NCBI GenBank assembly: GCA_003212625.1 | Contig: QCPI01000002.1 | Location: forward strand, 50,698 to 114,697 | DNA: 64,000 nt | Direction: 5' to 3' | DNA from: Prochlorococcus sp. AG-436-J02 | GTDB taxonomy: Bacteria > Cyanobacteriota > Cyanobacteriia > PCC-6307 > Cyanobiaceae | Shown: piece by piece, positions 2,161 through 59,792 of the stretch | Numbering within the stretch: position 1 is the first letter of the stretch | Layout: each line of letters begins with the position of its first letter | Notes under the pieces: generated by a model | The model's input: the letters and a program-made list of their open reading frames with translations, nothing else | Databases searched by the model: none | Told to the model about the DNA's origin: nothing | Translations under genes and position numbers: made by a program

Positions 2161-2412
2161 TCAGGAAACTGCAGCCAATAAATATCCTTCATCAAATAAT
2201 CGTTGATATGTAAATCTAGCTTCGTATTCTTTAAATGCCTTTCTTTTTCCATCATTTTTTTGTATATATACATATTTGTCATCTATACGACTTCTGGTAA
2301 ATGTATAAATGTTGTCTGCCTTAGTTAGCATCCATTGAATTGATCTGCATTTACCTTTGTCATTATTTAAATCCCATGGAATATTCTCGGGGTATTTCTC
2401 TAATATTGTCAT
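2161..2412 (-). CDS. Conserved hypothetical protein, 83 aa (paralogue of 1843-2094)
   Basis: A soluble protein of 83 residues and unknown role. EKYPE-x2-PWDL at residues 5-14 and EARFTYQRLFDEG near the end match its downstream tandem copy, while the middle has diverged strongly (FTRSRIDDKYVYIQKNDG here). It is the promoter-proximal member of the pair. Divergence between the copies argues against a very recent duplication. Confidence 0.65.
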   Translation of the reverse strand: MTILEKYPENIPWDLNNDKGKCRSIQWMLTKADNIYTFTRSRIDDKYVYIQKNDGKRKAFKEYEARFTYQRLFDEGYLLAAVS

Positions 2413-2745: not shown

Positions 2746-3351
2746 ATGAGAAGACTCTTAGGACTAGATAAGAATTGTTTTTCCAACTGGTGTGAAAAAT
2801 TACCAGGAGGAACAACTATGGTTGTGCAGCCCAAAATTGCTGGTTGCGCTATAGGGCTTAGATATAAATATGGTCAATTAGTAGATGCCTATTCTCGTGA
2901 AAACCCTGAAATTATTGAAATTATTAGGACTATAAATACTATTCCTTTAAGTATTGATGACTCTTTAAAAATTGAAGTGGAGTTAGAGGGTGTTTTATAC
3001 ACTCCTACTGTTAGTTCCAGATTGTCAAAAGATCAATTTAACTCCAACTCAATTAAACCCTTTGACATTAATAGACCTCTTGCTTTTTTGGCATTTCAAA
3101 TCTTTTCTTCAAAAAAGGATGAATTATCAGATTTGACACAACTCCAAGAATGGGGATTTGAGGTTCCTATTACCTTAAGAACAGAAGATCCAAAGCAGGT
3201 CAAGATTTGGCATTCTCAATGGATAAATAATGAATTGTTTTCGAATCTTCCTACCAATGGAATAGTTGCTAAATGTAATTCTTTTTCTACAAAGGATTTT
3301 TTAGGAGTCTCCTCAACTTTTCCTAATTGGGCTTTAGCTTTAACCAGATAA
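2746..3351 (+). CDS. NAD+-dependent DNA ligase adenylation-domain-like protein, 201 aa, degenerate active site
   Basis: The sequence follows the LigA nucleotidyltransferase domain in order. Residues 26-41 (VVQPKIAGCAIGLRYK) correspond to the ligase block around KxDG, next comes a YGQLV segment, then EVELEGVLY (for LEVRGEV), RPLAFLAFQIF (for RPLxFFAYGIG), LQEWGFEVP (for LxxLGFxVS), and near the C-terminus NGIVAKCNSF...FLG-x-SSTFPNWALA (for IDGVVIKVND...LGxTSRxPRWAIA). The adenylated lysine is retained as K30, but KxDG reads K30-I-A-G. LigA is about 670 aa; here the NMN-binding Ia domain and everything after the adenylation domain (OB fold, zinc finger, HhH, BRCT) are absent. It is probably not a ligase. 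Its role is unknown and may be nucleotide or DNA-end binding. Confidence 0.75.
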   Translation: MRRLLGLDKNCFSNWCEKLPGGTTMVVQPKIAGCAIGLRYKYGQLVDAYSRENPEIIEIIRTINTIPLSIDDSLKIEVELEGVLYTPTVSSRLSKDQFNSNSIKPFDINRPLAFLAFQIFSSKKDELSDLTQLQEWGFEVPITLRTEDPKQVKIWHSQWINNELFSNLPTNGIVAKCNSFSTKDFLGVSSTFPNWALALTR

Positions 3352-58656: not shown

Positions 58657-58781
58657 AATCAATAAAATATTTTGTTTAACATAAGATTAGAAAATAAATT
58701 AGATGTATTATTGATTTTACTGAATATTACAATTTACAGGTATCATTAGTTAACATCCAGCTATAGTTTGAAAAAATTGAA

Positions 58782-58855
58782 TGTCAGTGGAGAGACTTGA
58801 ACTCTCGACCTCAGCGTTATGAATGCTGTGCTCTAACCGGCTGAGCTACACTGAC
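58782..58855 (-). tRNA. trnM: tRNA-Met (anticodon CAT)
   Basis: Cloverleaf folds fully: acceptor GTCAGTG with CACTGAC, D arm GCTC...GAGC, anticodon stem CAGCA/CGCTG with one A-C mismatch at the base of the loop TTCATAA, and T arm GAGAG-TTCAAGT-CTCTC. No encoded CCA. The anticodon-arm sequence is like elongator tRNA-Met rather than the initiator (no C-A mismatch at the acceptor end, no GGG/CCC anticodon stem); tRNA-Ile2(CAT) is less likely but not excluded. Confidence 0.9.
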
Positions 58856-59792
58856 ATATTTATACCTTTGAACTTTACAGACTAAATGTATCGTCTTGTC
58901 AAGTAATAAGTACTTAAAAGTACTATATCAAGTCTGCTAGGAAAGTCGGTATACAAAACCATATTAATTCAGTATGGTCTACAAAGGAAGAAATCTTTAG
59001 ATCTCGAATCTTTTACGTCCTTCCTTAATTGCTAATTGCTTAATTAAATGGGTTTATAGTTCCAACAACTATTCCACAAAAAAAATAAATTACTTTTATT
59101 TAACTAGAATTAATTATTTTTTGTTTATAAATAATATTAAATAGATTAAGTAAATGGATCCATCTATTTTCAAAAATACTTAATATGTAATTGCATAATT
59201 AAAATATATTTTATTGTATTTATCTTGCACTGAAAAAAAGGTAATAATAATATAAATTTTCTAACTCAAAGAATTTCTTAAATTAAATGCATCGCAATAA
59301 TAAAGTTATTTGGTTTAGCCCATTTTTTATGAGACTAAGGACATATATAAAACTTTATAAATAAATAATATTTCGAATAAAATATAATAGAATTTCTAAT
59401 AATATATACCTTAATGAATTAAATTCAATAATATTTCAATTATACATCATTTTTTTATTACTGTTGGATCTGTTCATTAACTCACATGGTTTTTATTAAT
59501 CATAATAATATTATAATCATAAAAAAAAAACACCAGAATACTTTCAATGATTTTAAAGCATAGATATATTATTAACAAGTATTGTAAATAATGAGGAATT
59601 GATGCTATTTTATTATATATTTCACTTAGTTAAATTTTCTTTTATGTAAAAATTAGTATTATTTTCAATGTTCACTAACTATTGCTTTTGATTATATCTA
59701 GATTAACCTAGATAGTTTTTTTAAACAATATATAATGGTTTTATAATTGTCCCATAATTAATATAATATAAATGCTTTAGTGACCTGTTTTA
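58856..59792. other. Long gene-free stretch upstream of tRNA-Met
   Basis: Over 900 bases without a supported gene, very AT-rich. AGTACTT (58909-58915) and AAGTACT (58918-58924) form a compact palindrome near the tRNA promoter, and ACCATA (58958-58963) and TATGGT (58973-58978) another short hairpin. A 25-codon frame at 59287-59364 is noted but not called. Being next to a tRNA, this could be an old integration site, but no integrase is visible. Confidence 0.4.

Follow-up and report, generated by a model that had tools for sequence, protein, structure and literature searches.

The adenylation domain of NAD+-dependent DNA ligase (LigA; Pfam PF01653) is already known, as are phage proteins that hold only parts of this enzyme. 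In Escherichia coli LigA, adenylation takes place at K115, with E173, R200 and K290 named as essential residues (PMC8123306). Split ligases of the T5 type, which include the heterodimer of phage PR1 (9hu3/9i5i), are made up of a subunit A of 328–341 aa and a subunit B encoded nearby. Solo NLig-Ia phage proteins consist of one LigA domain living alone, and NAD+-dependent ligases have been reported only in viruses above ~68 kb (PMC9503650). Here, we describe a protein (protein A) encoded in a 64 000-nucleotide stretch of Prochlorococcus DNA, referred to as the window, that retains a different part of LigA and is no longer equipped as the enzyme is. The gene is located in the window as follows:

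2746–3351, forward strand: protein A gene, encoding a lone LigA-type NTase (adenylation) domain of 201 aa, identified from the open reading frame, Pfam, structure, orthologues and dN/dS.

A lone LigA adenylation domain

The frame is intact over all 201 codons. The initiating Met aligns just ahead of the NTase domain, with an open frame of only 10 codons upstream, and the stop codon lies right behind motif V. Domains Ia, OB, Zn, HhH and BRCT are missing, as an earlier note made from the sequence alone had seen for domain Ia and the DNA-binding domains. Protein A passed the PF01653 cut-off of 27 with 61.5 bits (E=1.1e-16) and failed that of TIGR00575, the full-length LigA equivalog, with 56.8 bits against 444; the NCBIfam LigA models matched at E ~1e-15, far below the full-length cut-off, and LigA chains in PDB matched by sequence at E ~1e-6.

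A model predicted from an alignment of 73 relatives had a mean pLDDT of 88.5 and a pTM of 0.84, and its top fold matches in PDB (Foldseek) were LigA adenylation domains (E ~1e-12, TM 0.75–0.82 by query length). Alignment to these domains with VIA-align gave Z scores of 20–22 and an rmsd of ~2.6 across 196–200 residues. The next fold matches were ATP-dependent ligases (Z ~15), and the PR1 phage ligase heterodimer was also among the matches. Homology of protein A to the LigA adenylation domain is confirmed, far above chance, and the LigA-like adenylation fold that the earlier note had proposed for these 201 residues is borne out by both profile search and structure prediction.

Catalytic residues

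The active site positions of protein A were counted in an alignment of 27 orthologues, and these are the clean counts; a second alignment containing all groups displaces single residues in a few of the protein A rows. The codons concerned (window coordinates, all on the forward strand) are:

2833–2835: Lys30 (AAA), equivalent to the nucleophile K115 of E. coli LigA; kept in 26/26 orthologues covering the site.
2839–2841: Ala32 (GCT), at the Asp site of KxDG; Asp in 15, Glu in 8, Ala in 2 and Val in 2 of 27 orthologues.
2992–2994: Val83, at the motif III Glu site (E. coli E173); Val in 19 and Ile in 8 of 27 orthologues.
3256–3258: Asn171, at the motif IV Asp site (E. coli D285); Asn in 27/27 orthologues.
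3271–3273: Lys176, the motif IV Lys (E. coli K290); conserved in 27/27 orthologues.
3343–3345: Thr200, at the motif V Lys site (E. coli K314); Thr in 27/27 orthologues.

Blocks I, III, IV and V can be identified and are in the original order, though most have substituted catalytic residues, and the NPRN..LRQLD arginine loop is gone from protein A and unconserved in its orthologues. Motif V, which the earlier note had described as well kept, is catalytically not so, the Lys being replaced by Thr throughout. Motif I reads K30-I31-A32-G33, and Gly33 is invariant (27/27). The replacement of KxDG by KIAG is real and unlikely to be a sequencing error because Ala is found at the same site in L007. 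It is neither fixed nor defining, however, and since site 32 varies between Asp, Glu, Ala and Val, KIAG is best read as one state of an unconstrained site in a protein that appears to have lost most of its catalytic residues.

Conservation, selection and gene neighbourhood

Disrupted orthologues in close relatives, which would have spoken against a repurposed fold, were not what we found; the gene is present free of stops, with 69–81 % identity, in most of the 41 genomes of the genus searched. When only genomes at least 90 % complete were considered, 17/17 had some match to the family and 15/17 had protein A itself; the two without it were G013, with matches via group C (see below) and LigA, and G031, with a match via LigA only. 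The median pairwise dN/dS was 0.138 (325 pairs, median dS 0.91); two longer genes of the same neighbourhood gave 0.120 and 0.090, and a paralogue (B) gave 0.357. The gene is under purifying selection. The gene order B–c2–c3–c10–c1–c4–A–...–c5 is kept in 14/14 loci. Two adjacent and similar 83-aa ORFs (1843–2094 and 2161–2412, reverse strand) are tandem duplicates belonging to cluster c4 and are conserved alongside A in most related genomes. No recombinase gene was seen near A, and the sole tRNA gene of the window is at 58781–58856.

Paralogue B (G000:C2:48726-49307; L053:4721-5407) is encoded just upstream of the window on the opposite strand and is 31 % identical to protein A. In the same genome, its frame is intact and PEING replaces PKIxG, the nucleophilic Lys having become Glu; across the B family this Lys can be Glu or Arg. 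The other substitutions in the family are D117 to Ile (13/14), E173 to Val or Ile, and K314 mostly to Asn.

A complete ligA gene (688–699 aa) was present in 11/11 relatives checked. The window's own assembly yielded none, the LigA model matching adenylation domains only; as this assembly is only 54 % complete, the absence is unremarkable. In the same 11 relatives, the LigA C-terminal half was found only within full-length ligA, besides short weak matches. A 313-aa open frame (G014:C17:11796-12665) has two weak LigA C-terminal matches, at model positions 573–651 in the BRCT region.

A family of minimal LigA proteins

Relatives of protein A were found in 70/300 genomes and 11/50 genera in a family-level survey, and many are ~250 aa long. 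We call these stand-alone proteins mini-LigA: they are ~250 aa in length, consist of a short domain Ia and the NTase domain, end at the motif V Lys and include no OB fold. The labels HL1, HL2 and, for the window's genus, low-light I used below are our own reading. Group C, found in the window's genus, is ~44 % identical to protein A and comprises lone proteins with an intact active site (KFDG, RGE, LR, DGIVVK and WAIALK), most of which keep the short domain Ia. The model of one of them, P0002, had a pLDDT of 89.5 and matched LigA Ia plus NTase at E ~1e-20. A C-type copy at L058:9490-10101 has lost domain Ia and kept the catalytic residues, and is a plausible intermediate towards protein A. Genomes G004, G005 and G007 carry A alongside live copies of C.

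In genus g17, 60/60 genomes hold a mini-LigA copy. These copies are at fixed places, HL1 being catalytically complete and HL2 partly degenerate. HL1 (L071:1498-2244 and its g17 orthologues) is chromosomally fixed in most g17 genomes.

A search of marine viral contigs (IMG/VR) with alignment A3 recovered 50 loci; searching the viral contigs with the single protein P0002, and a phage collection with protein A, gave no match. The contigs bearing mini-LigA are 4–55 kb long and may be incomplete. Among the 36 full-length viral proteins (L110–L145), K115, D117, E173, D285 and K314 are present in 36/36, as are Asp32 and Asp36 of domain Ia, with K290 in 34/36 and R208 in 30/36. From this catalytic set protein A retains only K115 and K290; D117 is variable, E173, D285 and K314 are lost, and there is no short Ia. 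The viral genes mostly adjoin those for a minor tail protein, a VapE-like helicase and a VRR-NUC nuclease. The protein adjoining mini-LigA in 35 viral loci was considered as a partner subunit and rejected, as it matches the phage minor tail protein phrog_1924.

Recombinases and tRNA genes beside intact relatives

At several loci in integrative elements, the start codon of an intact mini-LigA gene overlaps the stop codon of a recombinase gene by 4 bp (ATGA). The recombinase is a tyrosine recombinase at L060 and L105 in the window's own genus and at L189, L190 and L191 in g17, and a serine recombinase (Pfam Resolvase and Recombinase) at L104, where a phage capsid gene is nearby. The overlapping recombinase genes are:

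L060:7749-9727, tyrosine recombinase.
L105:80-2067, tyrosine recombinase.
L189:1296-3283, tyrosine recombinase.
L190:4844-6864, tyrosine recombinase.
L191:4746-6667, tyrosine recombinase.
L104:5516-8124, serine recombinase.

The 4-bp overlap suggests translational coupling. The recombinase is truncated at L195, and at L192 and L193 it is the mini-LigA that is truncated, with an overlap of 1 bp; other mini-LigA remnants with stops or truncations also occur. At L059, L060, L063 and L085, exact 44–46-nt copies of the tRNA-Pro 3′ end are found next to the mini-LigA gene or the recombinase gene that accompanies it; L057 and L062 have entire tRNA-Pro genes. Such tRNA-Pro repeats together with a recombinase are the hallmark of integration targeted to tRNA genes. 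The two genes do not always occur together. Recombinases of this family were found in 218/400 genomes and are far commoner than mini-LigA; most of them occur without it, and many mini-LigA genes have fixed places with no recombinase alongside.

Phylogeny and origin

A tree of 83 sequences, including LigA and T5-type ligases, placed protein A as the sister of group C (support 100/99), both falling in a mini-LigA clade (99/99) distinct from LigA and the T5-type ligases. Paralogue B lies elsewhere in the tree, grouping (96/92) with degenerate copies that occur singly in other genera, close to HL1, HL2 and three viral sequences. Long branches make some of the deep joins uncertain. The earlier note had implied that protein A arose as a trimmed LigA, and this does not agree with its position next to C; direct truncation of a resident ligA is disfavoured by the tree and by the fact that full mini-LigA relatives exist. 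Since most group C relatives keep the short domain Ia, its loss from protein A was secondary.

The tree requires 6 changes at D117, 6 at D285, 6 at K314 and 3 at E173, counts which include any regains and come from a tree alignment in which the trait columns remained. Because so many changes are needed, the losses were independent and repeated, and picocyanobacteria have fixed chromosomal copies more than once, with convergent loss of the catalytic residues. We infer that transfer ran from viruses to cells, though the reverse, capture from a host by an element, is possible. A mobile origin of protein A would be read from its relatives and the tree, with no recombinase or tRNA gene beside A itself.

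Possible function and alternative explanations

Taking together the homology and fold, the pattern of residue loss, the selection, synteny and tree placement, and the recombinase and tRNA context of some intact relatives, we consider that protein A is probably a chromosomally fixed, domesticated and catalytically degenerate stand-alone mini-LigA, a pseudo-adenylyltransferase and not a ligase. The intact mini-LigA proteins are NAD+-ligase adenylation units of ~250 aa, found on marine viral contigs and in picocyanobacterial integrative elements that bear a recombinase, and a C-like ancestor of A would have become fixed in the low-light Prochlorococcus lineage. Loss of domain Ia and of three to four residues for AMP binding and transfer would have followed, leaving the fold, lysines 30 and 176 and the chromosomal site to be retained under purifying selection.

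As the fold and the two lysines have been retained while the catalytic contacts were lost, protein A would be expected to carry out no NAD+-dependent ligation and may work as a non-catalytic nucleotide- or nucleic-acid-binding protein. The main rival is residual transferase activity, for which the conserved Lys30 and Lys176 would leave room. Protein A might be an adenylyltransferase with altered chemistry, forming Lys30-AMP from ATP or NAD+ in a changed pocket and passing the AMP to some acceptor (a protein, an RNA end or a small molecule). Strong purifying selection and the invariance of Lys30, Gly33 and Lys176 in the orthologues are consistent with this. However, the D117, E173, D285 and K314 sites are changed or unconstrained, there is no domain Ia, E. 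coli LigA has essential residues (E173, R200 and K290) besides its K115 site (PMC8123306), and in the B family, a parallel case, some members have Glu or Arg in place of the Lys, which together make altered chemistry unlikely. Much less likely again is a split ligase, in which protein A would be the subunit of a T5-like heterodimer and need a partner supplying OB, Zn, HhH and BRCT. T5-like phages do divide the enzyme between an adenylation subunit A and a subunit B, and the PR1 heterodimer is among the fold matches, but T5-type subunit A runs beyond motif V where mini-LigA stops, no neighbour of A or C was seen to resemble the remaining part of a ligase, the C-terminal half occurs in the 11 relatives only in full-length ligA, short weak matches aside, and protein A is without the catalytic residues. 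Least probable of all is a functionless, decaying pseudogene or selfish remnant that is still uninterrupted. Protein A is degenerate compared with C and the viral forms, and stop-bearing or truncated remnants of other mini-LigA copies exist. Yet intact orthologues in one conserved neighbourhood, stop-free in 15/17 genomes at least 90 % complete, the confident ligase-domain fold and a median dN/dS of 0.14 (325 pairs, median dS 0.9) argue that it is no pseudogene; the dN/dS leads us to reject a simple pseudogene, and the earlier view of a repurposed fold is supported.

To return to a domesticated binding protein, its task can only be guessed at. Given that live relatives belong to phages and integrative elements, competition or regulation is the most economical guess: protein A might bind a substrate or partner of the mini-LigA or recombinase of an incoming element or phage and so compete with it, though we hold this to be rather doubtful. 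In a narrower form of the same explanation, the dead copy would serve as an immunity factor that keeps related elements and phages from re-integrating or replicating. Dead copies have been fixed convergently where the lineage also has live copies, mobile or viral, and live copies can be recombinase-coupled; on the other hand, A and live C copies coexist in genomes such as the three named above, and immunity, too, is a doubtful proposition.

On a broader scale, we tentatively raise the possibility that marine viruses and recombinase-bearing elements carry a minimal NAD+-dependent Ia plus NTase enzyme without an OB fold, which in the elements is translationally coupled to tyrosine and serine recombinases and aids integration or excision, and that picocyanobacteria have domesticated it time and again. 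Catalysis would have been lost convergently, leaving a fixed chromosomal factor, of which protein A is an example, to regulate or interfere with those elements. If this were true, the charging half of the ligase would be able to move as a module in its own right, coupled to recombinases of unrelated classes, raising the question of why a ligase adenylation unit should be needed by a recombinase able to rejoin its own strands. The proteins would also line up in a natural series, starting with the live viral, HL1 and C enzymes, passing through L058, a copy that has no Ia and is catalytically complete, and ending with the dead, domesticated A and B, in a photosynthetic lineage that is among the most abundant. 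Caution would then be needed in labelling such proteins as NAD+-dependent DNA ligase.

Comparison with known systems

Protein A shares with the LigA adenylation domain its fold and the order of motifs I, III, IV and V, and retains Lys30 and Lys176. It differs in having no Ia, OB, Zn, HhH or BRCT domain, in the unconstrained Asp of KxDG, and in the substitutions at the catalytic Glu of motif III, Asp of motif IV and Lys of motif V. Tycheposons and related Prochlorococcus elements, as later papers citing the original work describe them, have tRNA-Pro genes or 3′ repeats and tyrosine recombinases in common with the mini-LigA of group C, whereas A itself lies outside any such element. We found no literature account of an OB-less Ia plus NTase unit coupled to recombinases, or of domesticated dead copies, in sources that did not include the original tycheposon paper, and the newness of both is provisional.

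The viral mini-LigA proteins, on contigs of 4–55 kb that are possibly incomplete, fall below the size limit of ~68 kb reported for viruses with NAD+-dependent ligases. Subunit A of the T5-type split ligases is likewise a lone phage Ia plus NTase unit and is ~30 % identical to intact mini-LigA. However, it contains sequence past motif V that may be an OB fold, whereas mini-LigA ends at motif V and protein A is also without Ia; and while subunit B is encoded nearby in T5-type phages, no gene for a ligase C-terminal part is found around A. The solo NLig-Ia phage proteins (PMC9503650) are the counterpart of protein A, in that they keep only Ia, the NAD+-binding part, whereas protein A keeps only the NTase domain.
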